From NCBI GenBank assembly GCA_018287875.1, contig JAGVVL010000021.1:1-64000 (forward strand): a stretch of DNA of 64,000 nucleotides, given 5' to 3'. A program made the position numbers and the translations under genes. Shown piece after piece: positions 2,476-60,287 of the stretch. The notes beneath the pieces were generated by a model that did no database searches, was not told the DNA's origin, and saw nothing but the letters and a program-made list of their open reading frames with translations. Each line of letters opens with the position of its first letter. The stretch's first letter is position 1. The stretch comes from Nigrospora sphaerica (lineage: Eukaryota; Ascomycota; Sordariomycetes; Amphisphaeriales; Apiosporaceae).

Positions 2476-3309
2476 GTGTCACTACTGGTTGTCCTTGATT
2501 TGAGATCGTTTCCTTTGCTTTCCATAGAGGTGTTTAGCGAATTAGCGCAGGTGGCTGGTTGGGACATTATTGTAAGAATAATAATAAGCCCGGTAAAGCT
2601 CTAAACGAAGCGACCATCCAGACCTCTGCCCTTAGTGAAGAAGGAGACTAATTAGCGACCGGTTTAAATCTCTAGAGGCCCTAGAAGTGTCGCAAAGTTA
2701 AGGAGACTACGCAGAAGGGCTTCGTTCGAATTGCAGACGTGCGTAAAGTGAAGGGGGAACTGGCGTCGTTCACCGATGCTAAGGGCAAGGGCTGCGCGAC
2801 AAAGCGACAGTTAATTAAGCTCGGATCTTCGAGCGGATCGGAATCCGAGTCCGAGGATTGTATCACTGTCTCATAGAAAAAAAGCACTCAGTTTCTGATT
2901 TGGTTGTTGGGACATCGTTTTAGTGTCGGTGTTCTATTTCTCGAGGACGTCTTAAACTCTGCCGCACTGATGGGCTGGCACGTATATGGGTGCTCCACCT
3001 TACAAGTCTTAGCAAGTGCGGTTACGCTTACCGGGTGAGAAAGATTTATTTTGGTCCTCTCTTATGAATACCATAAACTTCGCTCTCCACAACCTCTCCT
3101 GTGCGACAGAAGCTGTACTCATTCATTGTAAACCATTTTCCTCGACATGGAGTACTAAATGTCTAGGCTGAAGCTTCTGGCTCCCCTTGCAACGTATAGG
3201 AGAGAACGTAATATAGAGCGCCGAGTATGTGTCATTCCAGGAGCCCTTGGTTCGTTGACTCCCACCGATCCATATCGGCCAGCGCTCTTAGCACCATATA
3301 CAGTGCCTT
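2476..3309. other. Intergenic region ending in a LINE target-site duplication
   Basis: No supported gene. The last 14 bases (3296-3309, ATATACAGTGCCTT) are the 5' target-site duplication of the LINE that follows. The matching copy is not at the 3' end of that LINE but beside the tail of the opposed LINE, as the reverse complement of 25583-25596. Confidence 0.6.
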
Positions 3310-3417
3310 GAAAAACCTTTTCGAAACCGACCCCACACAGCGATAACTTCACAACCGCGACTCTATAAGCTACCGGATAGCCCGGAAACTGTTCCTAGGG
3401 CTTCATTTAGCCTAGAA

Positions 3418-4776
3418 ATGGTCGATTCACCACCCTCGAGGCAAAGCGCGGGTGGTGGGAGCCGCCATAGGCCCGCCCCACCCCCCGAGCCGTCACCTCC
3501 GGACTCAAGAACACCATCGCCAGACAGCATTACAGCATCTGGACGCAGTCCAGAGGATATACGCAGCACTATAGACGACTTCAAACGCTTCCTAGCTGGT
3601 GAAGTCAACATTGCGGCGTTAGCCGCAGCAGTTCAAGCTGCCATTCCGGTCCTAGAGATAGCGGCTAAGGAATCGAACAGCCAGCCCAGCGTCGAAAGAC
3701 GTATCAATGCTATCGAGAACACACTACAAGCTATCTATAAGGAAATTAAAGCTCCTAAGACGTACGCTGCAGCCGCTACTGCCCTTACCGCCTCCCCGAC
3801 GCCTAGGGCCCCCTAGGTAGCCAAGACTCTACCTCCTCGACACGAACGGGAGGTAACGGTCAAGGCCGCAGGAACTGAAGGCCGCACCTACGAAGAGATC
3901 GTGCGGAAAGTCAATGCAGCAACAGGCAAAGAAACGGCAATAGCTGCACGGAAGCTTCCTAGCGGAGACTATGCTATCACCTGCAAGACAGTAGAAGAGA
4001 AGCGACAGCTGGAAACCGACTGGACCTGGACCACCGAGGCCTTCGGAGAGAACGCCTCTATCCAGAAGAGAAAGATCCTGGTGGTGGCCCATGGCATCAA
4101 CAAGGAGGCCATAGAGACGAACCAAGGGCAGCTAGAAGTCCAACTCCGGAACCAGCCTGGCGGCCCTATCGACGTCCTGGAGGCCAAGCTCCCTCGTAAC
4201 GCTAAGACCTCGTCTAGGAAGGTCACGGCCCTATATATTGCAGTACCCACGGTTCAACAAGCGGAACAGCTATGTCGAGACGGCCTTATTTGGCAGTATG
4301 GCTACTATCCATGCGAACCCTTCGCCGAAGGAGCCCAGCTTAAGCAATGCTACCACTGCTACCGTTATGGACATATCGCCCGTGTTTGCCGCCACGCACG
4401 CAGGTGTGGGCTCTGCTCTTCAACAAAGCATAACGATAAAGAATGCCCAGAAGCCGAGAATAAGAGCCGGTACTGCTGCCCAGCATGCCGAGGACCACAC
4501 ACTGCGTGGTCTAAGGAGTGTCCAGTCCGCCAGGAGCAGGTCCAGATCGCCAAGGCTGCTTATGTCACGAGACCGAAGGGGTTCGCACTGCCCTCGCAAG
4601 AATCTCCTAAACCAACAGCCGAAGACTGGCAGACAGTACAGCCGCGGAAGCGTCGAGCAACCAGCTGCCGTACTAGAAGCACTGGCAGAGCCCGCAGCAG
4701 AACCCACGAAGAGATAGACGACATGGACATCGAAACACCGGAGTCAACACTAAACAGCATCCACGCTCGACCATGA
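3418..4776 (+). pseudogene. LINE ORF1 (zinc-knuckle gag-like protein), one nonsense codon
   Basis: Nucleic-acid-binding protein of the LINE particle. The frame runs 453 codons and is broken once, by TAG at 3814-3816; the RIP-type copy near 30.95 kb has CAG there. The C-terminal half carries three zinc knuckles: CYHCYRYGHIARVC, CGLCSSTKHNDKEC and CPACRGPHTAWSKEC. A basic, Arg/Ser-rich tail follows. The N-terminal 130 residues are rich in Pro and Ser. Its stop codon overlaps the ATG of ORF2 in the tetranucleotide ATGA (4773-4776), an arrangement that suggests termination-reinitiation to make ORF2. Confidence 0.85.
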
Positions 4777-7700
4777 CAGCGCTAAGGATCCTACACTAGA
4801 ACACGCAGAAAAGCAAGAAAGCACAGATCCCGGTAGTCGATGCCATCTCCGAAGAGTACGACGTCCTAGCTATCCAAGAGCCCTGGCGAAACCCAAATAT
4901 GCCGACCACCTACTGCCCGAGATCCTCTCTATACTTCCTACTCTACGCAATCGAGGGAGGTAGGGCATGCATCTATATTAATAAGAAGTACACCCCAGCG
5001 CAGTGGACATACGAGGCGCAGCCAGATAAGTGTCACATCACAATCCAACTACCAGACGGTCCTATAACGGTTATCTGCATATACTCGCCTCCCCTGGGTC
5101 CACCAGCAGATCGGACCTACCCGCTATCGAAGCCCTCCATGACGAACCCCAGCTAAGACGAACAGTCCTCATGGGAGACTTCAACGTCCACCACCCCGTC
5201 TGGGGAGGATACAACGTCCGACCCCATAGGGCAGCTGATAAGCTGCTCCAGCTAGCAGAATCCTGGAGACTCCAGCTGATCACACCCCCTGGAACACCGA
5301 CATGGACACGAAAAGGATGCGCAGACTCTACGATCGACCTAGCCTGGGCCACAGACGATCTCCGGGTCGCCTATGACGGATACGCACCATACGCAGGATC
5401 CGATCACCTCCCTCAGGTGATACGCGTGGCTGGACCCGTATAGACCGCCAAGACAGGCTACGACGCAGCTGGAAAACAGCTGACTACGACCAGGCGAAGG
5501 CAGAGGCGGCATACCTACCACAGCCAGGGCAACTCGAGACACCAGAAGAAATCGATAGCTACACCGAGACGTTAACTAAGGAGCTAACACGGATAGCCGA
5601 CCTAGTTGCCCCCCTCCGCCACTCTAAGGGGAGAGGCAAGGCCTGGTGGAACCACGATATAAAAAGAGCTATAGAGGAGGAGAGACGAGCCCAGCGAGCA
5701 TGGCTATCCGACAGGACAGACGCAGCCTGGCGAGCCCTTCGGCAAGCATCCCTTACGAAAAAGAAAACGATCCGCACCGCAAAGACAGCGACCTGGAGAG
5801 GCATGCTTCACGAGACCTCTAGCCAGCCAGCTGGCGTCTGGAATATCGCGAGATGGGCAAGAACGGAAGGAGCAGCACCACCGTTACCCCCGGCAGTCCC
5901 TACACTCTACACACCGCGTGGCGAAGTAACGACCCATAAGGAGAAAACAGAGGCCTTCCGAGAGAGGTTCTATCCCCTCCCTAAGGCTACGTACACCGGC
6001 TTCCGAACAACGAACCGGCTCGCAGCGCCTCTCGATATGGACAGCAAGGTGACAGCAGAACAAGTCCAAGACGTCCTTACTAAGGCAGGCCAGTGGAAGG
6101 CACCTGGACCAGACCAGCTTCCGAACGGATTCCTTAAACGCCTAGGAAAGCCCCTCTTCCAGGCCTTGGCCTCCCTAGCGGAAGCGTGCTGGCATATAGG
6201 ATACTATCCAAGAGCGTTCCGGAAAGCAGTCACCGTCATCCTCCGGAAGCCAGGAAAGCAGCCAAACGAGTATCACCAAGCCGGCGGATGGAGACCTATC
6301 GCGCTGCTCAACACTATAGGGAAAGCGATCGAGAGCCTACTAGCGCAACGGCTAGCTAGCTTTGCCGAAGAGAACGGACTGCTCCCGGACGAACAGATGG
6401 GCAACCGGAAAGGCCGCTCCACGGAAACAGCCTTACGGTTGCTAACGGACCTAGTCCGTACAGCCTGGAAACATGGAGGCGCAGCAACCCTTCTTTCGCT
6501 GGATATTTCGGGCGCTTTCGACTCGGTCGACTATGGAAGGCTCCTCGCTAACCTGCGAGCGCTAAGGGTCCCTATATAGACTATTAGCTGGATCCGAAGC
6601 TTCTTATCTAACCGGTCCACTACGCTATTCTTCGACAGCCAGGAATCAGACGAGATCCCAGTTCCGGCAGGCGTCCCGCAGGGCTCACCCTTATCGCCCA
6701 TCCTCTTCTGCCTCTATACAGCCGGTCTTTATAAGGCTCTCCGCGCTATACCAGGAATAGCTACTATAGCCTTCGCAGACGACACGAACCTCGTGGGCTT
6801 CGGTTTGGACCCCGAGCAGACTTGCGAGCGGCTGGAAGCCGCTCACAGGATCTGTAAAGAATAGGCAGTCAGCCACGGTATGACCTTTGCAGTCCAGAAA
6901 TATCACCTAGTCCACTTCTCTCGAAGACGGAAAGGTCCGGACATAAAGATAGCCTTAGAAGGCCACGAAATCGAACCAGAAGACTCCTGCCGCGTCCTTA
7001 GCATCCAGGTGGATAGACGTCTCCGCTGGGACGTCCACATCCAGTCGATATCGAAGAAGATGGCGACGCAGGTCTATGCTCTAGACCGGATAGCCGGCTC
7101 GACATAGGGCGCGTCTCTCCAGCGAGCCCGCCAAGTCTATACAGCCGTCGTACGGTCTGCGATAGGCTATGGAGCTTTAAAGTGGCACCGCCAGATCTCG
7201 AAAAATAGAGCCAAGGCACTCAACGACGTCCAAATAGAGTGCCTTCGAAAGGTCACAGGAGCTTTCAAAGCCACGGCCACCGCAGTACTAGAAACGGAAG
7301 CTTACGTGTCCCCCTTAGACACGTGGCTCAACAGAAGGGTGGCGGTATCGGAAGAGAGGCTCCAACAGCCGCGTATCGCATCACTCATCCAAGCGAGATG
7401 CGATAGCGCAGCTAGATGGATCCTAACAAGACCGACTCGCCGGCGCAGACCGAAAGGCCCCGACGCTCCCGATCGTAAGAGGTGGCTAGACGAATGGCTA
7501 GCTGGAGACTCAGCACATAAGGCTGAGGAGAGAGACTGGCTTCAAAGATGGCAACAAGCGCAGCAAAATCGAATAGCACGAACCCCGACAGCAACTAAGA
7601 TGCCGCCAGACAAACACGTCCTTAAGCTCCATAAGGGACTCCATAAGGCCGAGAGCTCCATCCTTGTCCAAGCGAGGACTGGCAAGATTGGGCTGCGAGA

Positions 7701-7959
7701 CTTCCTTTTTAAGCGTAGGGTCCCGGGCTTCGACAGCCCCTGGTGCGTCTGTGGTCAGGGCAGGGAGACCGTCCGGCATATCCTCGTTTTCTGCCCACGG
7801 GAAAGAGAAAGACGAGAGCATCTCGTCCAAGCTCTAGGAGGACCGGTAGACACGGACAGGATGCTCGACACCCTAGGAAAAGCAGGAATTATCGCGAGAT
7901 GGCTACTCCGCTCGCGTAGGCTGGACATGTTCCAGCTGGCGAATCAACTCATCAGCTAA
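4773..7959 (+). pseudogene. LINE ORF2 (endonuclease-reverse transcriptase), broken
   Basis: It would encode an APE-like endonuclease (about 4800-5440; GDFNVHHPVWGG and a GSDHLP motif are visible), a linker, and a reverse transcriptase (about 6090-7100) with LLSLDISGAFDSVD, AGVPQGSPLSPILF and AFADDTNL. A C-terminal Cys/His cluster follows (CVCGQGRETVRHILVFC). It is not functional as read. There are stops at codon 9 (4797-4799), after RALRVPI (near 6577), in CKE*AVSH (near 6862) and in GST*GAS (near 7105). Frameshifts lie near 5090 and 5437. Several stops are shared by all three copies in the window, so they predate these insertions or recur at the same RIP-prone sites. No RNase H domain is present. 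Confidence 0.85.
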
Positions 7960-8152
7960 GAAGCGGGCGCGCTGAGCCCGATCTCGGTATGGCAGGTCAA
8001 AGAGCAGATAGAAGCGGTGCGACGCAGCGGAACCTAGGTTTTTCACCCGGCCGGACGTCAGCCCGGAACGGTTTTCCTAGGCTAAGATGCGCGGGGGGTC
8101 CTCATGGCCTAGATAGGTCGCTAGGTGTAAGAACAATAATAATAATAATAAT

Positions 8153-8593
8153 TTCCTTATAGATAGCTTGCAGCGTGTTCTCGATAGCATTGATACGTCT
8201 TTCGACGCTAGGCTAGTTGTCCGATTCCTTAACCGCTGTCTTTAAGACCGGAATAGCGGCTTAAACTACTGCGGCTAAGGCCGTAATGTTAACTTCACTA
8301 GCTAGGAAGCGTTTGAAGTCGTCTATAGTGCTACGTATATCCTCTAGACTGCGTCCAGGTGCTGTAGTGCTGTCTGGCGATGGTGTTCTTAAGTCCGGAA
8401 GTGACGGCTCGAGGGGTGGGGCGGGTCTATGGCGGCTCCCACCACCCGCGTTTTGCCTCGAGGGTGGTGAATCGACCATTTCTAGGCTAGATGAAGCCCT
8501 AAGAACAGTTTCCGGGCTATCCGGTAGCTTATAGAGTCGTGGTTGTGAAGTTATCGCTATGAGGGGTCGGTTTCGAAAAAGTTTTTTCTCTTT
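8153..8593 (-). mobile_element. Displaced 5' end of the RIP-type LINE (copy 4)
   Basis: The reverse complement matches copy 1 from its 5' end to about 3749 (5' UTR and first 110 codons of ORF1), with many C-to-T and G-to-A differences. Copy 4 at 30862 begins where this piece stops. The 15 bases beyond its 5' end (8594-8608) are the reverse complement of ATTTCCCTTGCAACA, which also follows the tail of copy 4 (35283-35297). This is therefore the missing 5' end of copy 4, moved by an inversion. Confidence 0.85.
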
Positions 8594-8608
8594 TGTTGCA
8601 AGGGAAAT

Positions 8609-9150
8609 GAATCGACGGCAAAACTTGGGCCGCAGCAGATAAACATGGGCGTGGTATGGCGAGACCGTGAGGACTGTCCAGAACGGGGCAAGAGGCGCCG
8701 CATCCGGGTCAATCTAAGCGGTCTAGCTCCGCGCCGGAATTAGGAAGAGACCTCGCATGCAGAATACCATAGATAACAGACAGGGGCTAGCCACTTTTCT
8801 GACATGAAAAATTACCTATCCGAACACCTGGTGGGCCACTGCTCGTCGCATGGTACGACGCCGCTTACATCACATGGTTCCGTAACGGGTGAGCCATTTT
8901 CCAACTGCATAGGAACCTGAAATCGTTCGTGAGGAATCGTGCCATCATCTGATACAGCAAGACCAGGCAGATATTGACCCACAGTGGACCCTTCCATAGA
9001 CATCTTTATGTTCCTAATTTCTTGGCAGCCTTTGTACTGAGCTCTTAGGTAAAGTGACTGACCAAAAGTCTGCGCACAGACTACATTATTAACCACTCGT
9101 TAGTTTTTACCCTTTAACTTTTATTATTAATCACGCACTTAATTCGATAG
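8609..9150. other. Intergenic, one unassigned open frame
   Basis: An open frame of 94 codons lies at 8812-9096 on the minus strand. It has no recognised motif, no signal peptide and no clear splice partners. It could be a remnant exon or chance. Before the inversion this stretch would have adjoined the sequence now at 35.3 kb. Confidence 0.3.
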
Positions 9151-9719
9151 TGTTACATGTATACAACTTATCTTATACCGTTCTCTATCACTACGAATTA
9201 AGCTATGCACTTAATGGAAAGCTAGTCCTTTAACCGAGCCTATCCTAGAGCTCCGGCCAGCTTACCCTGGAGCACTGGCTAGCTTACCCGCAAGTATGGC
9301 CCGCTTTACCCGCAAGCGTGGTGTACGCCAATTGGAAGCTTCTACAAGTTTCTACGAGTTTCCACGAGTTTCACGTATTCCCTAAAGCCCACATGCCCCT
9401 ATAGGCTCCATGAACCTCCATAAGGTTTCATATGCTTTTAAGCCACGTAATGACTTATGTAATCACTTACGCGTTCTTCTCTTCGTATTACTAAGAGGAT
9501 AAGGGTTTAATAGGTATAAGTAAGGGCTGAATCTCTCCTCTCTATGTATCTAGTTTATCCTTAAGCAAGCAAGTAAGAAAGCATACAAAATACACTCTCG
9601 TTCCTCTTAAAGAGAAGTTCCTTATTCTTCCGTGTTTCTTTATAAAAAACAACCTCCGTGATCAAAAGAGCCCTTATAAAGGATTGCTTCCTCTTCTAAT
9701 CAAACCATCACTTTTAACA
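9151..9719 (-). repeat. LTR-like repeat, TGTTGG family, RIP-type copy
   Basis: It is the reverse complement of the TGTTGGAAGTGG family also seen at 11696-12251, 14359-16770 and 43134-43684. It is mutated at the terminus (TGTTAAAAGTGATGG, G-to-A changes). Its borders are the other copies' TG..CA ends. No matching 5-bp flanks (GATAG / TAAAG) are seen. Confidence 0.6.
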
Positions 9720-11695
9720 TAAAGGCTTTGAGTTTATAGTTTAATATCAAGTACCGGAACTACATACTTAATATCTATTCACCTTTAGAGATCGAGATTT
9801 GGATCGTTTCGTAGTCTACTTCTATTAAAAGTTACGAGTCTACCTCTGCTACCGTGAAAGAGATGTTAAACAAAGCTAAATCAATAGTCGATCTTATAGC
9901 GTAGGTAAGGATTTTAATCTCTTTAATATAGTTAAGCCCGTTAGCAATAGCTTAATCGTGGATCTCGAAACATCTATTATAAGTTATAGCTATATCGGGG
10001 TGTTAAGCGTTATATTTAGTGTTAAAGTCTCTTATAACTATATAGTGAGTGTAACGAGGCGCTATACCTATAGTCTTGCGGGACGTAGGGTTTGTATAAT
10101 CAGGGACAGAGAGCGTCTATTTAGCTTAAACACTAGTCGCTAGGTAAATGAATGACTGAGGGTGCTTAACTGGGTAACTAGTCTGAACTTTACAATAGGT
10201 CGTTAAGGGATTACTCCTATCTATAGGTGAGATAGATACTTAGATTGATTATTAAGATAATAACTATCTATATAGGAAATCCTTCTAACTTGTATATTAA
10301 GTTATTCCCTTACTAATATCCTGGATTGCCTTTATCTTCTTAAGGCTCACTAGTATCTCTTAGGGACTACCAGTGATTCTCCCTTAGATTACTGTTAAGC
10401 CGTGATCTATCCTTAGTGATCTATTCTATACGTTATCCTAGCTTAAGGCTGAGTATGGGGTAGCTATAAGGTAATCATGGCTTATTCCTTTATAGCTAGT
10501 GGTAAGGGATGGTTAATCTATGCGTTATTCTCTAACGCTGGCTATAATAGGGTTGTTTACTTAACTTGGAATACAGCGCTGTTAATTTATAATATCACTT
10601 CCCCCCTTTTTAAGCCTTTGTCTTTAAGAATGAGTATATAAAAGGCTGCTTTACCTGTTATGCTAGTTCTTTATAAGTTTCATTCTTTCACTTCTCTTTT
10701 CCTTGCTTTTCTTATGATATCTACTTATTATATCTAATTATATCAAAAAGTCTTCTTTTAAGATGATGGATTAACGTTATAAGCTTTTCGCTGTTATTAA
10801 GGAATTTGGTTTCAAAGTTATACCTTACAATCTTTGTTTCAAACGGGGATGGAAGTGTTAAATAATGGAAGGGATGTCGCGTTATAAGGAGTGTGTTCGC
10901 TGTGGTCGTTCCCACGATAGTTCCGGCGTCCCCGTTTCTTCTTTATCGCGTATTATGGCCGAGTCTTAACGCCTTCGGAGTGAGTAAACGTAGACCGAGA
11001 AGGAGTTGGAATCCTTTCTTACGCAATCTTGCTCTATACAGTGACGTGTCGACAAATCTTTGTCTTGCCTTAAACGTCTTTGGTAGCAACGTGCTTCCTT
11101 ATTGTCTCAGGGTGCCGAGATAGTGAATTAAGGCCTCCAGTCTTTAGATAAGCTAGATAAGTCGGATCGCTAAGAGGTGGAGTTGGTCGCTAAGGCGCAG
11201 GCTTTAGGCGGTGTAGGCGTGGTTAATTAAAGCGCCGTGTTCGAGTAAGACTTAGAGTTGATTAACTAGCTTCCTACTAAAAATCTTTTAACGCTTATTG
11301 CGAGTTCCTTAAGTGCTCTATAGATTCCTATATATTTTCCTTTAGTGGTTATTCTTTCTATTTTATAAGGTATTTCTATAAATCCTTGTTTCTCTTTCTA
11401 TCGAAGATGGTCTCAACCTTATATTCCTGCTAATTTAACTCGATTTTTAACATTGATTCGAGTTTAGTGTTTGCTAACATAGGTTTGAGTAGCGAAATAT
11501 CAAATATGGAATAGATCTTTATATTGTTTAATAGCAATAGTTTATAGTGAAACTAAGAAACCCCAAACTATAGGGAGTCTAGTGGAAAGACACCGTCATA
11601 GGAATACTAGAGCACAGTATATAAGACCACGAGATACCCCTATAGGAAGGAAAACAGCCGAAACCCTCTAGGATCTACCTAATCAACTTAGAACA
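9720..11695. other. AT-rich, RIP-type sequence between two LTR-like repeats
   Basis: Low-complexity, stop-rich sequence without a usable frame. A TATATAAAAGG motif at about 10635-10645 and a CT-rich stretch (10680-10720) look like a decayed retroelement promoter. The two flanking LTR-like repeats have the same orientation, so this may be the gutted interior of one LTR element. However, no primer-binding site or protein motif survives to show it. Confidence 0.35.
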
Positions 11696-12251
11696 TGTTG
11701 CAGGTATGGGACTTATCCTATACCGTTCTCTGTCACTACGGACTAAGCTATGACTTAACGAGAAGCTAGTCCTTTAACCGAGCCTATCCTAAAGCTCGGG
11801 CCAGCCTACCTGGAGCACGGGCCAGCTTACCCGCAAGCATGGCCCGCTTTACCCACAAGTGTGGCGTTCGCCACGCGAAGCTTCGCAGGTTCCACGAGTT
11901 TCACGAGTTTCTACGTGGCTCCCTGAAGCTCCCACGAGGCCCCATGAGGCTCCACAAACCTCTATAAGGTTCCATATGCTTCTAAGCCACGTAATCACTT
12001 ACGCAATCACTTACGCGTCCTCTTCCTTGTATTACTAAGAGGATAAAGGTTTAACGGGTATAAGTAAAGGCTGAATCTCCCCTCTTCGTGTAACTAGTCT
12101 GTCCCAAGCAAGCACACGAAATACACTCTCGTTCCTCTTGAAGAGAAGTTCCTTATCCTTCCGTGTTTCTTTATAGAAACGACCTCCGAGATCGAAAGAG
12201 CCCTTATAAAGGGGTTGCTTCCTCTTTTCGATCAAACCACCACTTCCAACA
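11696..12251 (-). repeat. LTR-like repeat, TGTTGG family
   Basis: In reverse complement it starts TGTTGGAAGTGGTGG and ends near GGTATAGG..CAACA, about 556 bases. It is better preserved than the copy at 9151-9719. The flanks GAACA and ATAAT do not form a duplication, so it is either one LTR of a decayed element with the copy at 9151 or a rearranged solo LTR. Confidence 0.6.
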
Positions 12252-12848
12252 ATAATGCTATTTAAGGCGTGGGTAATCTTAGCTAGCACCAATTGTTAAG
12301 TGTTATCGTTTATTTATATCCCTTAAAATCGGGCTTAGTGTGTTAAAGACTAGGTAGTGTTTTTACATTATAGCTGCGGCTTTTTCCGTCATTGAAGTTT
12401 CTTGAATGTCGTTGACCTTCCTTTGGTTTAGTAGTAGTCCGTTTGTAAAGGCCTTATTTTACCTTGTTAGCTTCTTCCTATATACATAAGTGGGAAAAGC
12501 TTCTTTATAATAGTTAGGAGGATCGTTTCCCGTCATCACCTTATCGACGACGTCCTTATAAGGAGGTGAAGCTATCACGATAATAGTCTTAAAGTCCATT
12601 TAGCCTTTAAGTTAGCGTTAAGGGCCTGTTAAAGAGTTGTTAAGGATTGGGCAGTAAAAAGCGGGCTGGCACTAACAGTAGGTGCTAGAAAAGAATGGTC
12701 TTCTTAAGGAAGTATGTCGCGCTGTAAGGGTATTCCCAACGTTGGCAACCTGTTACTGGAGTCACGTGAGAAGCTCCATAGGAGCCTTGCCAAGCTTCGG
12801 TATATAGTCTGCCATGTCTGGCATATTTCCTTGTGTTAGTTTCCTTTA
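12252..12848. other. Intergenic, degraded sequence
   Basis: AT-rich, stop-rich sequence with no gene. The last two bases (TA, 12847-12848) are the target-site duplication of the pogo-like transposon that follows. Confidence 0.4.
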
Positions 12849-16754: not shown

Positions 16755-17189
16755 CGTTATACTTTTAACAAAAGGCCTTTGATAAGAAGAATGTCTAATT
16801 AGCTACTGCTAAAGGCAGATTCAGGCTCTCAAAGCTAGAATTGAGACTATAAGACTAAGGAAGAGAAAGAAAGTGGATTTAAGCTCTAATTCAAAGTTCC
16901 CGAACATTAAAGACATCCACCGGGCTCAGTTTGCGGTCGGGGAGATTAAAAGTAGTCTAGATGAAGAGAGCGATAGCGAAAGCCTAAGTAAGGCTGGTTT
17001 TTGTATTAGAGTTGTCATTAATTAAGGCTGCACTTGAAGTTCTATTGATAGGGTTGGTTTTAAGCGTGGTGTTGCTGGGGGGCCGAAATGTGGGGGGGGG
17101 GCCGAAATGGGGGTCCTCTGACTTAATGAACAGCCTTGAAGTCCGTTTCCATCTTGCCAGTGCCGCTGCGGTGCGACATTAGCTAAACT

Positions 17190-24076: not shown

Positions 24077-24297
24077 AGAAGGTGAGTAAAGGGTCTCTCT
24101 TCGAAGCTTGCTGGAATTATGCCCCTCTCTACCACTAACTGTGTCTGTGTTGCTCTTTATGTATATTAGGGTCTCTTCCCTCCTCTGGTTCTGATGCTTT
24201 TTACATCTTTGATTAACTGATTCACCGCCGTTTAACGAAGCATTTGTCACGGACAAGCCTAGCTAATCTAGCTGAAGCTGCTGAGATGGAGTCAAGG

Positions 24298-24756
24298 TTA
24301 GATTGAATAATTAGTTAAAGGTATAGAAGGGTTACGGCATGGGTACATAGGTAAAGGGCATGGGAGCGCATGGACCACTGGCCAGCAGGACGTACCGCTA
24401 GCTGGATATATTCCTGCCAAACAGTGACTGAGAGAAGCCTGTTCCTCTTCTTTTCCTATTGACCTGTAGTTTTCGCATCTCAATAGAACCTTCAGGGCAT
24501 CACCAGATCCCTCGTTCTTTGAACCGTGACAGCTTTGCGCCTTCTCCCGCACTTCCAATGTCGCTCGATGCATCTCCTTCGCCGCCTCATACTTCCTCTG
24601 ACTAGAGAGTACGACGGCCAGGTTGTTCATGCTGTTGAGTGTGAAAGGGTTCTCACGGCTTAGCACCGCCTCCCTTAGCTCTAGGGTCGCCTGGTGCATC
24701 TCCTCCGCCGCCTCGTACTTCCTCTGGCTATCGAGTAGGTTGCCTAGGTTACTCAT
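24298..24756 (-). pseudogene. TPR (kinesin-light-chain-like) repeat fragment
   Basis: 152 codons start with two 42-residue TPR units, each containing SQRKYEAAEEMHQATLELRE or a close variant with NPFTLNSMNNLAVVL. This is the pattern found at the C-terminus of fungal NB-ARC/TPR proteins. The upstream part of such a protein is missing: the frame starts right beside a 12-bp minisatellite. The 3' half is repeated, more decayed, at about 40880-41100. A fragment of an NLR-type gene is the best reading; function is unlikely. Confidence 0.65.
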
Positions 24757-24821
24757 AATGACGAGAGTGACTAGGCTCTTCTAACCCCCACCATGGACCG
24801 CCTCTCGAGCCTTACCTCCAG

Positions 24822-24902
24822 CCAGCCCTCCAGCCAGCCCTCCAGCCAGCCCTCCAGCCAGCCCTCCAGCCAGCCCTCCAGCCAGCCCTCCAGCCAGTCC
24901 AC
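24822..24902 (+). repeat. 12-bp minisatellite
   Basis: About seven direct copies of CCAGCCAGCCCT. It abuts the truncated 5' side of the TPR fragment. Confidence 0.9.
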
Positions 24903-25582
24903 CGACCCTTAAGGCAGTGCTTCGTCGGTTGACAGCATCCCCGAACCTCCTGCGAGCCCTGGTGGTTCGGACGGGTCTTCAGAAAGCGACGAGGGTGAGT
25001 TACCCTCACTGCAGACGAAGACGGAAGCGAAGACGAAGAGGAAGACGAAGAGTTGCCCCCTCCCAGCCAAGGGTACAGCTGGTGGAGGCGTGGGAAAGGC
25101 GCCGCCAGGAATCGTCTGCAACAGAGGAATCAGCCCTCCAGTCCTTCGGGCCTCCAGAGCCTATCGAGAACGCCAGCAGCGCTGGTGAGAGGCCTGTCCG
25201 GACTGGGGATGGCCTGGCGTTGGTGTTGCAATTGCAACTGCTAGCGGTTCCTCAAGCAGGCGGGGCCGCAGACGGGCTCCAGTGCAGTCCAGCCAGGCAG
25301 GTCAGTCTCCCCAGGCCTGCAGATGCCAGCCTTGCAATTGCAACTAACTAACCTACATCTAGTCCAGCCAGGCCAGCCTCCGCCATCCTCATCACCACCG
25401 GTAATTCAGCTAGGGACGCCGCTCCTAGCTGCGGAGACGCAGCGCTTGGAGCCTCAACGGCGCATCCTACGTCGAAGGAATCGCCGGCTCGCTGGCGCTG
25501 GCGCTGGCTTTGAGGTTGCAACTCAGCCCCCTCCAGCGGTGGCAGGACCCTCGACCTTGACGTCAGCGCGAGCGCCAACTTA
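24903..25582. repeat. Dispersed repeat, related to sequence near 36.2 kb
   Basis: In reverse complement the stretch 24900-25080 matches 36190-36350 over about 170 bases (shared GGAGGTTC, CTCGTCGCTTTC and ACTCTTCGTCTTC), the latter copy being RIP-mutated. On the plus strand it holds a low-complexity frame rich in Ser/Pro/Gln and acidic residues with no known domain. Before the inversion it would directly follow position 3309. Confidence 0.5.
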
Positions 25583-25787
25583 AAGGCACTGTATATTATT
25601 ATTATTATTATTATTCTTACACCTAGCGACCTATTTAGGCCATGAGGACCCCCTGCGCATCTTAGCCTAGGAAAACCGTTCCGGGCTGACGTCCGGCCGG
25701 GTGAAAAACCTAGGTTCCGCTGCGTCGTACCGCTTCTATCTACTCTTTGACCTGCCATACCGAGATCGGGCTCAGCGCGCCCGCTTC

Positions 25788-28700
25788 CTAGCTGATAAGT
25801 TGATTCGCTAGCTGGAACATGTCCAGCCTTCCGGAGCGGAGTAGCCATCTCGCGATAATTCCTGCTTTTCCTGGGGTGTCGAGCATCCTGTCCGTGTCTA
25901 CCGGTCCTCCTAGAGCTTGGACGAGATGCTCTCGTCTTTCTCTTTCCCGTGGGCAGAAAACGAGGATATGCCGGACGGTCTCCCTGCCCTGACCACAGAC
26001 GCACCAGGGCTGTCGAAGCCCGGGACCCTACGCTTAAAAAGGAAGTCTCGCAGCCCAATCTTGCCAGTCCTCGCTTGGACGAGGATGGAGCTCTCGGCCT
26101 TATGGAGTCCCTTATAGAGCTTGAGGACGTGTTTGTCTGGCGGCATCTTAGTTGCTGTCGGGGTTCGTGCTATTCGATTTTGCTGCGCTTGTTGCCATCT
26201 TTGAAGCCAGTCTCTCCTCAGCCTTATGTGCTGAGTCTCCAGCTAGCCATTCGTCTAGCCACCTCTTACGATCGGGAGCGTCGGGGCCTTTCGGTCTGCG
26301 CCGGCGAGTCGGTCTTGTTAGGATCCATCTAGCTGCGCTATCGCATCTCGCTTGGATGAGTGATGCGATACGCGGCTGTTGGAGCCTCTCTTCCGATGCC
26401 GCCACCCTTCTGTTGAGCCACGTGTCTAAGGGGGACACGTAAGCTTCCGTTTCTAGTACTGCGGTGGCCGTGGCTTTGAAAGCTCCTGTGACCTTTCGAA
26501 GGCACTCTATCTGGACGTCGTTGAGTGCCTTGGCTCTATTTTTCGAGATCTGGCGGTGCCACTCTAAAGCTCCATAGCCTATCGCAGACCGTACGACGGC
26601 TGTATAGACTTGGCGGGCTTGCTGGAGAGACGCGCCCCATGTCGAGCCGGCTATCCAGTCTAGAGCATAGACCTGCGTCGCCATCTTCTTCGATATCGAC
26701 TGGATGTGGACGTCCCAGCGGAGACGTCTATCCACCTGGATGCCAAGGACGCGGCAGGAGTCTTCTGGTTCGATTTCGTGGCCTTCTAAGGCTATCTTTA
26801 TATCCGGACCTTTCCGTCTTCGAGAGAAGTGGACTAGGTGATATTTCTGGACTGCAAAGGTCATGCCGTGGCTGACTGCCTATTCTTTACAGATCCTGTG
26901 AGCGGCTTCCAGCCGCTCGCAAGTCTGCTCGGGGTCCAAACCGAAGCCCACGAGGTTTGTGTCGTCTGCGAAGGCTATAGTAGCTATTCCTGGTATAGCG
27001 CGGAGAGCCTTATAAAGACCGGCTGTATAGAGGCAGAAGAGGATGGGCGATAAAGGTGAGCCCTGCGGGACGCCTGCCGGAACTGGGATCTCGTCCGATT
27101 CCTGGCTATCGAAGAATAGCGTAGTGGACCGGTTAGATAAGAAGCTTCGGATCCAGCTAATAGTCTATATAGGGACCCTTAGCGCTCGCAGGTTAGCGAG
27201 GAGCCTTCCATGGTCGACCGAGTCGAAAGCGCCCGAAATATCCAGCGAAAGAAGGGTTGCTGCGCCTCCATGTTTCCAGGCTGTACGGACTAGGTCCGTT
27301 AGCAACCGTAAGGCTGTTTCCGTGGAGCGGCCTTTCCGGTTGCCCATCTGTTCGTCCGGGAGCAGTCCGTTCTCTTCGGCAAAGCTAGCTAGCCGTTGCG
27401 CTAGTAGGCTCTCGATCGCTTTCCCTATAGTGTTGAGCAGCGCGATAGGTCTCCATCCGCCGGCTTGGTGATACTCGTTTGGCTGCTTTCCTGGCTTCCG
27501 GAGGATGACGGTGACTGCTTTCCGGAACGCTCTTGGATAGTATCCTATATGCCAGCACGCTTCCGCTAGGGAGGCCAAGGCCTGGAAGAGGGGCTTTCCT
27601 AGGCGTTTAAGGAATCCGTTCGAAGCTGGTCTGGTCCAGGTGCCTTCCACTGGCCTGCCTTAGTAAGGACGTCTTGGACTTGTTCTGCTGTCACCTTGCT
27701 GTCCATATCGAGAGGCGCTGCGAGCCGGTTCGTTGTTCGGAAGCCGGTGTACGTAGCCTTAGGGAGGGATAGAACCTCTCTCGGAAGGCCTCTGTTTTCT
27801 CCTTATGGGTCGTTACTTCGCCACGCGGTGTGTAGAGTGTAGGGACTGCCGGGGGTAACGGTGGTGCTGCTCCTTCCGTTCTTGCCCATCTCGCGATATT
27901 CCAGACGCCAGCTGGCTGGCTAGAGGTCTCGTGAAGCATGCCTCTCCAGGTCGCTGTCTTTGCGGTGCGGATCGTTTTCTTTTTCGTAAGGGATGCTTGC
28001 CGAAGGGCTCGCCAGGCTGCGTCTGTCCTGTCGGATAGCCATGCTCGCTGGGCTCGTCTCTCCTCCTCTATAGCTCTTTTTATATCGTGGTTCCACCAGG
28101 CCTTGCCTCTCCTTAGAGTGGCGGAGGGGGCAACTAGGTCGGCTATCCGTGTTAGCTCCTTAGTTAACGTCTCGGTGTAGCTATCGATTTCTTCTGGTGT
28201 CTCGAGTTGCCCTGGCTGTGGTAGGTATGCCGCCTCTGCCTTCGCCTGGTCGTAGTCAGCTGTTTTCCAGCTGCGTCGTAGCCTGTCTTGGCGGTCTATA
28301 CGGGGTCCAGCCACGCGTATCACCTGAGGGAGGTGATCGGATCCTGCGTATGGTGCGTATCCGTCATAGGCGACCCGGAGATCGTCTGTGGCCCAGGCTA
28401 GGTCGATCGTAGAGTCTGCGCATCCTTTTCGTGTCCATGTCGGTGTTCCAGGGGGTGTGATCAGCTGGAGTCTCCAGGATTCTGCTAGCTGGAGCAGCTT
28501 ATCAGCTGCCCTATGGGGTCGGACGTTGTATCCTCCCCAGACGGGGTGGTGGACGTTGAAGTCTCCCATGAGGACTGTTCGTCTTAGCTGGGGTTCGTCA
28601 TGGAGGGCTTCGATAGCGGGTAGGTCCGATCTGCTGGTGGACCCAGGGGAGGCGAGTATATGCAGATAACCGTTATAGGACCGTCTGGTAGTTGGATTGT

Positions 28701-28967
28701 GATGTGACACTTATCTGGCTGCGCCTCGTATGTCCACTGCGCTGGGGTGTACTTCTTATTAATATAGATGCATGCCCTACCTCCCTCGATTGCGTAGAGT
28801 AGGAAGTATAGAGAGGATCTCGGGCAGTAGGTGGTCGGCATATTTGGGTTTCGCCAGGGCTCTTGGATAGCTAGGACGTCGTACTCTTCGGAGATGGCAT
28901 CGACTACCGGGATCTGTGCTTTCTTGCTTTTCTGCGTGTTCTAGTGTAGGATCCTTAGCGCTGTCAT
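25788..28967 (-). pseudogene. LINE ORF2 of copy 3 (endonuclease-reverse transcriptase), broken
   Basis: Same domain order as in copy 1. The start ATG overlaps the ORF1 stop, followed by a TAG at codon 9, then endonuclease, reverse transcriptase (AGVPQGSPLSPILF, AFADDTNL) and a C-terminal Cys/His cluster. It is less damaged than copy 1: the frame is open from the end of the endonuclease through the linker to the start of the RT domain (28710-27691), and the Trp lost in copy 1 (GST*GAS) is intact here as GSTWGAS. It shares the frameshift near codon 105 and the stops before TISWIRSF and before AVSHGMTF. Confidence 0.8.
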
Positions 28968-30028
28968 GGTCGAGCGTGGATGCTGTTTAGTGTTGACTCC
29001 GGTGTTTCGATGTCCATGTCGTCTATCTCTTCGTGGGTTCTGCTGCGGGCTCTGCCAGTGCTTCTAGTACGGCAGCTGGTCGCTCGACGCTTCCGCGGCT
29101 GAACTGTCTGCTAGTCTTCGGCTGTTGTCTTAGGGGGTTCTTGCGAGGGCAGTGCGAATCCCTTCGGTCTTGTGATATAAGCAGCCTTGGCAATCTGGAC
29201 CTGCTCTTGGCGGACTGGGCACTCCTTAGACCACGCAGTGTGTGGTCCTCGGCATGCTGGACAGCAGTACCGGCTCTTATTCTCGGCTTCTGGGCATTCT
29301 TTATCATCATGCTTTGTTGAAGAGCAGAGCCCGCACCTACGTGCGTGGCGGCAGACACGGGCGATATGTCCATAACGGTAACAGTGGTAGCATTGCTTAA
29401 GCTGTGCTCCTTCGGCGAAGGGCTCGCATGGATAGTAGCCATACTGCCAAATAAGGCCGTCTCGACATAGCTGTTCCGCTTGTTGAACCGTGGGTACTGC
29501 AATATATAGGGCCGTGACCTTCCCAGACGAGGTCTTAGCGTTGCGAGGTAGCTTGGCCTCTAGTACGTCGATAGGGCCGCCGGGCTGGTTCCGGAGTTGG
29601 ACTCCTAGCTGCCCTTGGTTCGTCTCTATGGCCTCTTTGTTAATGCCATGGGCCACCACCAGGATCTTTCTCTTCTGGATGGAGGCACTCTCTCCGAAGG
29701 CCTCGGCGGTCCAGTTTAGGTCGGCTTCTAGGCCTCCTATTCCCCGGGTCAAGTTCTCTGCGCTTTCTATAGAAAGGGGGGGAATAGAAGGTTTGCACCT
29801 TAAGCAGCCCGCAAGGGCATATCCCTCTCTAGGACCACCGACATGCGCATCCGTCCTCTCGAGCCATAGCACGACCTCCTCGACCTGCAGCCTCCCAGGA
29901 TAGCACCTGCGCCAGCGACACTCCGACAGAGAAGATGCCCTTTGGCACAATCGAAGGCAGTCCGTCTCATCCTTGTCTCCAGGTCCCTGGGCTGGCCCAA
30001 TCCAGCTGTTCATCCCCTTCCACGGCAA
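28964..30028 (-). pseudogene. LINE ORF1 of copy 3, chimeric N-terminus, one nonsense codon
   Basis: From ATG 30028, the first about 105 residues (MPWKGMNSWIGPAQGPG.., ending near EADLN) are unrelated to ORF1 of copy 1. From WTAEAFGESASIQKRK onward the two agree, including the three zinc knuckles. A TAG replaces a Trp codon at 29111-29113 (after TAED). The frame then continues to the stop at 28964. Either the family has two ORF1 5' modules or this copy gained foreign 5' sequence by template switching. Confidence 0.7.
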
Positions 30029-30861
30029 GTCCTCGAACCGGTTCCATCTCTAGTCGACCCTAGTGCGAGTAGGGGACGTAGGGGCTACCCTGTTCTTCTG
30101 CTGGTCCCGCGGTCGTCGTGCTATGCTACGGCCCACCGGTGTCCTAGGGTGGCGAGCCCTAGACCGGCTTCCCGTTGCTCGCCGCCATCTCTGCCGGCGA
30201 GCCGACTATATCTTGCCGTAGGCCTTCGGTAAGGGGTACCACCACGCCGGCATAGTACCCTGTAAGGCCTCGACTAACCTGCCCTGATCCACCATATGTT
30301 CGTCTCCGGAGCGGTGCGCTGTCACCTTAAAGGGCGACACAGGCGGCCAGCCGTAGCCACTATTGCCTTAACGACTCCGTCCCTATGTTCTTAACAACTT
30401 CCATTACTCCGTACGCACGTCCACTTAGGTATTCGTTTGATGCCCTCGCGGCTGTTCGCTGCAAGCCGTCTCAGAGCTCGGCAGGGCCGAGGGTGTCCTA
30501 TCGTCGCTTCGAGAACCGAGTCGACGTCGGATGGTTTTTCTACCCAAATCCCTCTATAAAGACGAGGGCCTTCGCTGCGCGGCCGATTTGTCGTCGATTC
30601 GGCGTCGCGTGGTGTCGATTTTCGAGGATGCTTGCTACGTTTAGCGGGGGCGAAAAGTTTTCGGTCGTGCGACGCCCGAAAATCCCGCATCACAGATCGT
30701 ATCAGCAAAACTCCAGAGCAGCGACATAGCGACGCAGCAATAGCGCCTCGCTGCACTTTCGTGCAGAATGCGTCTCTACATCGGCTCTTCCTCAGTCAAT
30801 TGACCCAGGAAGATTTCCAGCCGGCGCCGCGGGGAGGCTGTAGAGTCCGACTTCGCCAGCC

Positions 30862-33800
30862 CTATAAGGAAATTAAAGCTCTTAAGACGTACGCCACAGC
30901 TACTACTACCCTTACCGCCGCCCCGGCGCCTAGGGCCCCCCAGGTAGCTAAGACTCTGCCTCCTCGACACGAACGGGAGGTAACGGTTAAGGCCGTAGGA
31001 ACTGAAGGCCGCACTTATAAAGAGATCTTGCCGAAAGTTAACGCAGCAACAGGTAGAGAAACAGCAATAGCCGTATAGAAGCTTCCTAATAAAGACTATA
31101 CTATTATCTGCAAGACAGCAGAAGAGAAGCGACAGCTAGAAACTGACCGGGTCTAGACCACTGAGGCCTTCGGAGAGAACGCCTTTATTTAGAAGAGAAA
31201 GATCCTAGTGGTGGCTTATAGCATCAATAAGGAGGCTATTAAGACGAACTAAGGGCAGTTAAAAGTCCAACTCCGGAAGCAGCCCGGCGGCCCTATCGAC
31301 GTCCTGGAGGCCAAGCTCCCTCGCAACGCTAAGACCTCGTCTAGGAAGGTCACAGCCCTATGTATTGCAGTACCCACGGTTCAACAAGCGGAACAGCTAT
31401 GCCGAGACGGCCTTATTTAGCAGTATGGCTACTATCTATGCGAGCCATTTACTGAAGGAGCATAGCTTAAGCAATACTACCACTGCTACCGTTATAGACA
31501 TATCGCCTATATCTGCTGCCACGCACATAGGTGCAGGCTCTGCTCTTTAATAAAACATGACGATAAAGAATACCCAGAAGCCGAGAATAAGAACCGGTAC
31601 TGCTGTCTAGCATACCGAGCACCACACACTGCGTAGTTTAAGGAGTGTCCAGTCCGCTAAGAGCAGGTCCAGATCGCTAAGGCTACTTATATCATAAGAC
31701 CGAAGGGATTTGCACTGCCCTTATAAGAACCCCCCAAGCCAACAGCTAAGGACTGGCAAACAGTATAGCCGCGGAAGCGTCGAGCAACCAGCTGCCGTAT
31801 TAGAAGCACTGGCAGAGCCCGTAGTAGAACCCACGAAGAGATAGACAACATGGATATCGAAACACCGGAGTCAACACTAAATAGTATCCACGCTCGACTA
31901 TGATAGCGCTAAGGACCTTACATTGGAACACGTAAAAAAGTAAAAAAGCACAGATCCCGGCAGTCGATACTATCTTTAAAGAGTACGACGTCCTGGCTAT
32001 TTAAGAGCATTAGCGAAATCTATATATGCCGACCACCTACTGCCCAAGATCCTCTCCGTACTACCTACTTTACGCGATTGAGGGAAGTAGGGTATGTATT
32101 TACATTAATAAGAAGTACACCCTAATGTAATGGATATACGAGGTGTAGCCGGATAAGTGTCGTATCATAATCCAACTACTAGATGGTCCTATAATAGTTG
32201 TCTGTATATACTCGCCTCCCCTTAGGTCCACTAGCAGATCGGACCTGCCCGCTATCGAAGCCTTCTATACCGAACCCTAGCTAAGACAAATAGTCCTCGT
32301 GGGAGACTTTAACGTCCACCACCCTATTTAGGGAGGATACAACGTCCGACCCTATAATGCAGCTAACAAGCTGCTCCAGCTAGCAGAATCCTGGAGACTC
32401 CAGCTGATCACTCCCCTTAGAACACCGACATGGACTCGAAGAAGGTACATGGACTCCACGATCGACTTAGCGTGGGCCACGGACGATCTCCGAGCTGCCT
32501 ACGACGGGTATACCCTATTTGCTAGATCCAATCACCTCCCCTAGGTGATACACGTGGCTGGACCCTGTATAGATTATTAAGACAGGCCACGACATAACTA
32601 GAAAACAGCTGATTATAACCAGGCGAAGGCAAAAGCGGCACACCTACCACAGCTAGGGCGACTCGAGACACCAGAAGAAATCGATAGCTACACCGAAACG
32701 TTAACTAAGGAATTAACTCGGATAGCTAACCTAGTTGCCCCCCTCCGCTACTCTAAAGGGAGAGGTAAAGCTTAGTGGAACCACGAGATAGAAGAAGCTA
32801 TAAAAAAGGAGCGACGAGCTTAGCAGACATCTCTTTCCAATAGGATAGACGCAGCTTAGCGAGCCCTCCGTTAGTCAACTCTCTTAAAGAAGAAAGCAAT
32901 CTAAGAAGCCAAGACGGCGTCCTAGAGATATATACTCCACGAGGCGTCTAACTAGCCAGCTGGCGTCTAGAATATTGCGAGATAGGCAAGAACGGAAGGA
33001 GCAGCACCGCCGTTACCCCCAGCAGTCCCTGCGCTCTACACACCGCGTAGTAAAGCAACGACCTATAAGGAGAAAACAGAGGCCTTCCGAGAGAGGTTCT
33101 ATCCCCTCCTTAAGGCTATGTACACCGGCTTCCGAATAACGAACCGGCTCGTAGCGCCCCTTGATATGGACAGAAAGGTGACAGCAGAACAAGTCTAAGA
33201 CGTCCTCACTAAAGTAGGCCAGTGGAAAGCGCCTAGGCTAGACCAGCTTCCGAACGGATTCCTTAAACGCTTAGGAAAGCCCCTCTTCTAAGCATTGGCC
33301 TCCCTAGCGGAAACATGCTGGCATATAGGATACTATCTAAGAGCGTTCCGGAAAGCAGTCACCGTTATCCTCCGGAAGCTAGGAAAACAGCTAAACGAGT
33401 ACTACTAAGCCGGCGGATAGAGACTTATCGCCTTACTTAACACTATAGGGAAGGTAATCGAGAGCCTGCTAACGCAACGGCTAGCGAACTTTGCCGAGGA
33501 GAACGGGATACTCCCAGACGAACAAATGGGGAACCGAAAGGGCCGCTTTACAGAAACGGCCCTACGTTTGCTAACGGACCTAGTCTGTACAGCTTGGAAG
33601 TACGGAGGCGTAGCAACCTTTCTATCACTAGATATCTTAGGCGCTTTTGACTCTGTGGACTATAGAAGGCTCCTTATTAACCTACGTGCGCTAAAGGTCT
33701 CTATATAGACTATTAGCTGGATCCGAAGCTTCCTATTTAACCAGTCCACAACGCTATTCTTCGATAGCCAGGAATCGGACGAGATCCCAACCCCAGCAGG

Positions 33801-35282
33801 CGTCCCACAGGGCTCACCCCTATCGCTTATCCTCTTCTGCCTCTATATAGCCGGTCTCTATAAGGCTCTCCGCGCTATACTAGGGATAATTGCTATAGCC
33901 TTTATAGACGACACGAACCTCGTGGGCTTCGGTTTAAACCCCGAGCAGACCTGCGAGCAGCTGGAAGCCGCTCACAGGATCTATAAAGAATAGGTAGTCA
34001 GCTATAGTATAACCTTCGCAGTCCAGAAATATCACCTAGTCTATTTCTCTCGAAAACGGAAAGGTCCGGATATGAAGATAGCCTTAAAAGGTCACGAAAT
34101 CGAACTAGAAGACTCCTGCCGCGTCCTTAGCATCCAGGTAAATAGACGTCTCCGCTAGGACGTCTATATCTAGTCGATATCGAAGAAGATAGCGACGTAG
34201 GTCTATACTCTAGACTAAATAGCCGGCTCGATATAGGGCGCGTCTCTCTAATAAGCCCGCCAAGTTTATACAGCGGTCGTACAGTCTGCGATAAGCTATG
34301 GAGCTTTAAAGTGGCACCGCTAGATCTCGAAAAATAAAGCTAAGGCACTTAACGACGTCCAGACAGAGTGCCTCCGAAAGGTCACAGGAGCTTTCAAAGC
34401 CACGGCTACCGCAGTATTAGAAACGGAAGCTTACGTGTCCCCCTTAAACACGTGGCTCAACAGAAGGGTGGCAGCATTAGAAGAGAGGCTCCAACAGCCG
34501 CGTATCGCATTACTCATCTAAGCGAGATGCGATAGCGTAGCTAAATAGATCCTAACAAGACCGACTCGCCAGCGCAGACTGAAAGGCCCCGACGCTCCCA
34601 ATTGTAAAAGGTGGCTAGACGAATAGCTAGCTGGAGACTCAGCACACAAGGCTAAGGAGAGAGACTAGCTTTAAAGATAGTAATAAACGCAGCAAAATCG
34701 AACAGCATAAGCCCCGGCAGTAACTAAGATGCCGCTAGATAAGCACGTCCTTAAGCTCTATAAGGGTCTCTATAAAGCGGAGAGCTCTATCCTTATTTAA
34801 GCGAGGACTAGTAAGATTAGGCTGCGAGACTTCCTTTTTAAGCGTAGGGTTCCAGGCTTCGACAGCCCCTAGTGTGTTTGCGGTTAAGGCAGGGAGACTG
34901 TCCGTCATATCCTCGTTTTCTGCCCACGGGAAAGAGAAAGACGAGAGCATCTCGTTTAAGCCCTAGGAGGACTGGTAGACACAGACAGGATACTCGACAC
35001 CCCAGGAAAAGCAGGAATCATTACGAGATAGCTACTCCGCTCCGGAAGGCTGGATATGTTCCAGCTAGCGAATCAACTTATCAGCTAGGAAGCGGGCGCG
35101 CTAAGCCCGATCTCGGTATGGCAGGTCAAAGAGTAGATAGAAGCGGTACGACGCAGCGGAACCTAGGTTTTTCACCCGGCCGGACGTCAGCCCGGAACGG
35201 TTTTCCTAGGCTAAGATGCGCAGGGGGTCCTCATGGCCTAAATAGGTCGCTAGGTGTAAGAATAATAATAATAATAATAATA
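30862..35282 (+). mobile_element. Non-LTR retrotransposon (LINE), copy 4, heavily RIP-type; 5' end displaced
   Basis: It matches copies 1 and 3 throughout but carries dense C-to-T/G-to-A changes and dozens of stops. It starts at the position equivalent to 3736 of copy 1. Its missing 5' end is the minus-strand piece 8153-8593. The tail is (AAT)n, about 35260-35282, followed by ATTTCCCTTGCAACA, the same 15 bases found beyond the displaced 5' end. Readable pieces include the zinc-knuckle region (31480-31680), the endonuclease GDFNVHHP (near 32310) and the RT (33500-34000). Where copies 1 and 3 have TAG at ORF2 codon 9, this copy has TGG, so the ancestral residue was Trp. Confidence 0.88.
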
Positions 35283-35297
35283 ATTTCCCTTGCAACA

Positions 35298-59384: not shown

Positions 59385-59451
59385 TATTACTGAAAATTTT
59401 CAGGTATTTGTGGCTGGCACTTTTTTCCATTTAATTTATTAAATACTACAG

Positions 59452-60204: not shown

Positions 60205-60287
60205 GATCTGAGTGATTCCTCTATTTTAGTATACAAGACTAAAATATAGTTGACACAGCCGCCTGGCCGACACATATCTGCTTCACA

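Follow-up and report, generated by a model that had tools for sequence, protein, structure and literature searches.

Inversions mediated by L1 and Alu, which are mammalian elements, are known from the comparison of human and chimpanzee and come about by recombination between opposed retrotransposons. Here we describe a locus in the first 64 kb of contig C11 of the fungus Nigrospora sphaerica (this whole stretch is called the window; genome-wide counts refer to the assembly of 33 contigs and 51.6 Mb). At this locus a crossover with gene conversion between two opposed copies of a long interspersed nuclear element (LINE) very probably inverted 20.7 to 24.4 kb within the chromosome. The inversion is known from one assembly and one gene order.

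Like this locus, inversion 2z3 of Drosophila buzzatii has opposed copies of one element, Galileo, at its breakpoints, exchanged target duplications and two copies that are both chimeric, according to the part of the 2z3 report considered here (PMC2775673). Galileo is a DNA transposon with 7-bp duplications, and in that part of the report the non-inverted chromosome was sequenced too, whereas here the elements are LINEs, the duplications are 13 to 15 bp long and the inverted order alone is known. Compared with the account of 2z3 in the same part of the paper, a third, nested element gives an extra exchanged pair here and a conversion tract is visible. The mechanism is already known from the Galileo inversions of Drosophila; the present locus adds a well-documented case of it. 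As a record of one LINE-mediated fungal inversion it is unusually complete: the conversion tract, the reciprocal subfamily hybrids and three duplications can all still be read.

One of the two LINEs is fused to a non-LINE module of 1,131 bp, and this chimera, judged from its sequence, matches the MINE elements of Magnaporthe (WEIRD-MGL chimeras) in architecture. As described in the portion of PMC2104539 considered here, MINE elements likewise have a full-length 1.1-kb module 5' of a variably truncated LINE in the same orientation, likewise have short flanking target duplications, and share some junction positions. In that portion WEIRD is 1,113 nt and the LINE about 6 kb, compared with a module of 1,131 bp and a LINE of about 4.8 kb here; a GCC motif and no microhomology are reported there, whereas 16 of 16 LINE junctions here overlap CC. 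The 5' RNA WEIRD of these chimeric retroelements was described there, in 2007, as of unknown function. MINE belongs to another fungal group, the closest named proteins here being those of Apiospora and other Xylariales, and the likeness is one of architecture. The module here begins with a predicted hepatitis delta virus (HDV)-like ribozyme, and as a lead this ribozyme-tipped module is more novel than the inversion.

Exchanged duplications and LINE copies at the ends of a probable inversion

Two homologous LINE copies in opposite orientation lie one at either end of the inverted segment. Copy 1 (3310 to 8149, + strand) is a 4,840-bp LINE with a (TAA)n tail, equal in length to the longest copies seen. 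The LINE part of copy 3 (25597 to 29730, − strand) runs from LINE position about 699 to the end and has 4.1 kb in common with copy 1 at 98.2% identity. The original prediction, made from the sequence of the window, took copy 3 to be LINE throughout; its 5' part, at 29731 to 30861 (− strand), turned out to be the separate 1,131-bp repeat module. A further LINE, copy 4, is present as a main piece (30862 to 35282, + strand; LINE position 426 to the tail) and a stranded 5' piece (8163 to 8593, − strand; LINE position 1 to 425). Pfam placed a reverse-transcriptase domain (PF00078) in an open frame of copy 1 (5377 to 6576) and an endonuclease domain (PF14529) in one of copy 3 (27694 to 28710), whereas none of the six open LINE frames that were scanned matched RNase H.

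These pieces are bordered by six short repeats that form three exact pairs. We call the insertions that would have preceded the inversion element A, on the copy 4 side, and element B, on the other. The 14-mer ATATACAGTGCCTT, at 3296 to 3309 (+) and 25583 to 25596 (−), is assigned as the left and right target duplication of element B from exact match, genome count and end comparison. The 13-mer CTATAAGGAAATT, at 8150 to 8162 (−) and 30862 to 30874 (+), is assigned to element A, and the 15-mer ATTTCCCTTGCAACA is assigned to copy 4, with an outer copy at 8594 to 8608 (−) and a tail-side copy at 35283 to 35297 (+). Both ATATACAGTGCCTT and ATTTCCCTTGCAACA occur exactly twice in the genome, at these places only, and the reversed-sequence control for each gave 0 matches genome-wide. 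CTATAAGGAAATT has a third place within the window, at 3735 (+), because it is LINE-internal (LINE position 426 to 438). As the duplicated target of an insertion into copy 4, it is weaker evidence taken alone. A single inversion between a point in copy 1 and a point in copy 3 restores the 14-, 13- and 15-nt pairs together and makes copy 4 continuous. The original prediction had proposed this one-step restoration, and the subfamily hybrids and the substitution-free tract described below agree with it.

The ends of 36 genomic elements, each a LINE or a module-LINE chimera, were compared as a control (L001, L031, L032 and L034, whose places are shared with others, and L023 were left out). An own duplication of 10 to 16 nt was found in 20 of the 36, and 16 were without one. 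Copies 1 and 3 have no own duplication (best 5 nt), and each matches the other's end in register. Crossed pairs of 5' and 3' ends matched over at least 10 nt in 40 of 1,260 cases, 34 of which are LINE-tail sequence. The six left over comprise copies 1 and 3 in each direction, L006 and L035 likewise in each direction, and two single matches, L025 with copy 1 and L002 with L029. L006 and L035 are segmental duplicates that both keep their own duplications, L025 and copy 1 both end in LINE-internal sequence, and L002 and L029 are neighbours. Exchange of duplications is thus seen only between copies 1 and 3 among the 36 elements compared.

As shown by alignment and substitution counts, copy 4 carries mutations of the repeat-induced point mutation (RIP) type. 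In the main piece, C>T or G>A changes make up 379 of 470 substitutions, with a strong CpA bias and a TpA/ApT ratio of 1.68, and the stranded 5' piece has the same pattern (21 of 24). The two pieces overlap in exactly the 13 nt of CTATAAGGAAATT and are continuous with the copy 1 sequence across the join, so a LINE-like element appears to have landed antisense in copy 4 with a 13-nt duplication. Both pieces are RIP-mutated, and therefore copy 4 is probably the oldest of the insertions and was mutated before it was split, as the original prediction had it. The antisense landing had also been foreseen correctly, but the element was a module-LINE chimera and not a plain LINE. The inversion is the last event; no order is set between elements A and B. 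At another locus (L023/L025, C7:115847-123979) a RIP-mutated LINE has a LINE inserted antisense at LINE position 412 to 425. The L025 insertion adjoins the site at 426 to 438 used in copy 4, and this part of the LINE may be a hot spot for insertions.

An alignment of copies 1 and 3 shows 70 differing sites, of which 41 are early (5' region), 18 lie in the middle and 11 are late (tail region, LINE 4605 to 4825). L002 shares its letter with copy 1 at 39 of the 41 early sites, but sides with copy 3 at every one of the 11 late sites. Eleven elements have copy-3 letters at 36 to 39 of the 41 early sites, and in seven of these (L006, L009, L013, L033, L035, L036 and L037) 10 or 11 of the 11 late letters are those of copy 1. 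The pre-exchange combinations of 5' part and tail are existing LINE types, and therefore the present copies read as reciprocal hybrids of two LINE subfamily types: copy 1 would have its 5' part from element B and its 3' part from element A, and copy 3 its 5' part from A and its 3' part from B. Hence their duplications look scrambled. Mosaic LINEs occur otherwise too, and therefore the hybrid evidence supports that of the duplications and does not stand alone. L017, which has copy 3's combination of 5' and 3' types and no clear own duplication, is a candidate for a second exchange.

At LINE position 1351 to 3222 (4660 to 6531, + strand, in copy 1; 27213 to 29080, − strand, in copy 3), copies 1 and 3 show 0 substitutions in 1,867 columns and differ by small indels only, compared with 64 differences in the remaining 2,249 shared columns. 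A tract of this length was reached in none of 20,000 shuffles (largest run 755), and among 630 element pairs a longer run was found only in the segmental duplicate L006/L035, the next longest being 648. A crossover accompanied by gene conversion is expected to leave such a pattern. The mapped limits of the tract give an inverted segment of 20.7 to 24.4 kb; the predicted inversion is supported, and its predicted length (17 kb between tails, up to about 27 kb) is amended. At LINE 1401 to 2400, copy 3 has 0 to 2 differences per 200 from L002 and 4 to 23 from the X-type element L033, and it is X-like upstream. On the left side of this exchange zone copy 3 resembles L002 and so the type of B, which makes element B the probable donor there. 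The zero substitutions suggest that the last exchange between the LINE arms was recent.

The locus was very probably formed as follows. An old LINE, copy 4, inserted with a 15-bp duplication and then underwent RIP mutation. Element A, in which the 1,131-bp module was fused to a LINE truncated at its 5' end, inserted antisense in copy 4 at LINE position 426 to 438, and element B near a short-chain dehydrogenase (SDR) gene, in opposite orientation to A and with a 14-bp duplication. We infer that A and B then exchanged strands somewhere in LINE position 1351 to 3222, which inverted all the DNA between them. Host homologous recombination would be enough for this exchange, and the LINE enzyme would not be required. 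Own versus exchanged duplications, together with subfamily phasing, could serve as a cheap genome-wide test for such inversions.

Weighing the inversion against its alternatives

Several points weigh against the inversion between elements A and B. It is read from one assembled sequence. Four of the 11 copy-3-type elements are without the expected tail (L011, L014 and L038 are mixed; L017 has copy-3 letters at 11 of 11 late sites), mosaic LINEs occur without a known inversion, with L017 showing copy 3's own combination, and only L002 closely resembles the type of element B. LINE position 2401 to 2600 fits neither parent type, and both copies are X-like from about 2600 to 4550; element B would therefore have been mosaic already. 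Copy 3 has 5 private indel columns and 1 private substitution, and its consensus quality may be lower on that account; 0 or 1 private indels are found in 32 of 37 copies, and three others besides copy 3 have 6 to 12. In addition to copies 1 and 3, 14 elements have no own duplication. The window is the very start of contig C11 and no telomere repeat was found; the joined host flanks of both sites gave no convincing frame for a gene restored by undoing the inversion. The restored gene was rejected as a candidate, the reading frames at the present junctions being equally long. Locus numbers in protein names gave no usable pairs of SDR, isocyanide synthase and GMC oxidoreductase, among the 120 matches listed for each, from which the gene order of relatives could be read.

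A real inversion may also be polymorphic or recurrent, the opposed LINEs continuing to flip the segment, with both orders then present in a population or within a single culture. This is compatible with the crossover set out above and is rather unlikely, although it fares best among the alternatives: the inverted arms are still 98% identical over 4.1 kb, with the identical tract, and the zero substitutions suggest a recent last exchange, but the assembly holds one order only.

Less probable still, at what we judge to be a small chance, is a mis-assembly, in which the real chromosome keeps the un-inverted order and the hybrids are false, made by an assembler that crossed from one LINE to the other within the identical tract. 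The hybrids do switch within 1.87 kb that show no substitution, the window lies at the end of a contig, and single-base indels are commoner in copy 3 than in most copies. The word "proven" in the original prediction was too strong, since an assembler error of this kind would produce hybrids just like these. However, 33 contigs for 51.6 Mb, together with the absence of N from the window and from the first 30 loci, among which are many similar 4.8-kb LINEs, suggest long reads able to span a 4.1-kb repeat with 64 differences, the whole block is listed just once in the genome, and the identical tract would still demand recent gene conversion. Two independent LINE insertions with decayed duplications and chance matches between them, for which the 14 other elements without a clear duplication might speak, are hardly credible given the end comparison, two matching pairs unique in the genome (ATATACAGTGCCTT and ATTTCCCTTGCAACA), exact offsets and reciprocal sequence hybrids.

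The 1,131-bp module and its predicted ribozyme

The module of copy 3 was delimited from genome copies and junction comparison, and at least 41 near-full-length copies are present in the genome. The full-length module is joined directly to the 5'-truncated LINE, in the same orientation, at 16 junctions at 15 LINE positions, which range from 93 to about 2,865. This count leaves out L039, L042 and L045, which are not joined to this LINE, and takes as reference intact LINE copies 86 to 100% identical to the chimeras. LINE position 1565 recurs in two chimeras and in the plain truncated LINE L025, and position 1000 in one chimera and in the plain truncated LINE L022. The CC dinucleotide that overlaps every one of the 16 junctions makes up 9% of dinucleotides, and it matches the module 3' end GGCC.

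Duplications of 13 to 15 nt lie outside the whole chimera in 7 of 9 module-LINE elements (L009, L018, L019, L024, L026, L028 and L029); L030 has none outside, and that of copy 3 is exchanged with copy 1. In 6 of the 7 the own duplication ends at most 1 base from the module start, while L028, the remaining one, has no match for bases 1 to 56 of the module. Ends of plain LINE copies are 0 to 24 nt away from their duplications. Ten module 3' flanks were compared: seven join this LINE, one (L039) a truncated module copy and two (L042 and L045) other sequence. Downstream of L042 (C13:4662838) and L045 (C9:1192790), about 1.9 kb contained neither a LINE tail nor a duplication of more than 8 nt, and these two may be source loci or chimeras with other elements.

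Some elements share flanks. L006 (C18:1559427-1564256) and L035 (C3:67629-71761) show no difference in 4,824 aligned columns and have their flanks and duplications in common. The module places L076 and L077 (C18 and C3) also share flanks and, with L006 and L035, suggest a segmental duplication; L091 and L092 (C13 and C14) likewise share flanks.

The first 95 nt of the module (30767 to 30861, − strand), at its exact 5' end, are a predicted HDV-like ribozyme on the basis of Rfam models, fold and alignment. They match three HDV-like ribozyme models, starting at or at most 2 nt from the first base, with all scores below the curated cut-offs; at these cut-offs Rfam gave nothing in the window. RF00094 scored 30.2 bits in the window and at best 33.6 in the genome, below its curated cut-off of 50 bits. 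Genome-wide it gave 52 matches up to an E-value of 10 (best 0.09), none above 50 bits. Forty of these lie at module starts, 39 of them among the 41 near-full-length copies and 1 elsewhere, and the other 12 share the ribozyme-like stretch, as far as they were read; 2 of the 41 module starts have no match. The matches are copies of one repeat and therefore one piece of evidence, not 52. Sub-threshold RF00094 matches were also found in 4 of 14 control genomes.

We aligned 22 of 47 ribozyme sequences (the 25 left out are 24 identical over the 95 nt and L094, which has a deletion). Helix names and the catalytic C are assigned as in the HDV-like family. All helices of the double pseudoknot (P1, P2, P3, P1.1 and P4) can form, with 98.4% of cells paired, and C78, after P4, is invariant in 22 of 22 rows. 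The P2 pairs, which the Rfam model does not score, are present in the module start. All 24 pairs of P1 to P4 occur at 1 of 127,810 window positions, a uniqueness that is partly by construction, the structure having been read off the same sequence. An energy fold of the 95 nt, in which pseudoknots are impossible, has P1 and P4 present and P3 absent. There is little covariation, all of it in P4: both-side changes occur in 2 P4 pairs (111 of 500 shuffles reach 2, and one slid structure gives 3) and in 6 P4 cells (0 of 500 shuffles), while P1 to P3 are nearly invariant. When module bases 1 to 911 were folded, their stability did not clearly exceed that of shuffled sequences (z −1.73), 2 of 20 of which did as well.

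HDV-like ribozymes of R2, L1Tc/ingi and other non-LTR elements are likewise predicted to cut exactly at the element 5' end, in the parts of PMC3774820, PMC4035085 and PMC7761336 considered here. In comparison with the ribozymes covered there, the predicted one stands on a non-LINE module that would be joined by template switching, and its Rfam scores are below the curated cut-off. HDV-like ribozymes are also known in fungi.

We see about an even chance that the module is a roughly 1.13-kb RNA whose 5' end is cut by an HDV-like ribozyme and which spreads by LINE template switching. The LINE reverse transcriptase would switch templates onto the module by 2-nt microhomology; clean module ends (ribozyme-cut GGC..., fixed 3' ...GGCC) would let it jump at CC sites, and an apparently non-coding RNA could spread through repeated switching. 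If active, a ribozyme-tipped module would be a mechanism for fungal chimeric retroelements. If the Magnaporthe WEIRD RNA were built alike, its constant 5' end and the GCC motif reported at its junctions would both be accounted for; no link of WEIRD or MINE to an HDV-like ribozyme was found among the open-access PMC matches listed.

Cargo of the probably inverted block and neighbouring genes

The block inside the inversion (8609 to 25582) was delimited by genome comparison. No second copy of the whole block is listed in the genome, the listed matches being dispersed repeats of its parts. A domain search identified exons of an MFS transporter (17193 to 18645, − strand) and an FAD-binding monooxygenase (19368 to 20540, − strand). 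Domain search and protein comparison identified a gene for a fused isocyanide synthase (DIT1_PvcA) and TauD dioxygenase (21672 to 24073, + strand), which bears out the original prediction that the block carries an isocyanide cluster. The isocyanide synthase is 63 to 69% identical to proteins of five Apiospora species, and the best named match of the GMC oxidoreductase is an Apiospora arundinis protein (65% identity).

An SDR exon was found by domain search at 1370 to 2167 (+ strand). It is now 21.9 kb from the isocyanide-synthase gene; with the inversion undone, the distance would be about 7.5 kb with element B and 2.6 kb without it. The event would thus have moved a natural-product cluster: the isocyanide-synthase gene, once about 7.5 kb from the SDR gene, would have come to lie 21.9 kb from it.

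The block also contains, at 14903 to 16760, a DNA transposon of about 1.86 kb with terminal inverted repeats of about 42 to 47 bp and HTH_psq/Tc5-type DNA-binding domains, which has many genome copies. Elsewhere in the window, a long tandem repeat with an 18-bp period (59331 to 60368) is open in frame on both strands.

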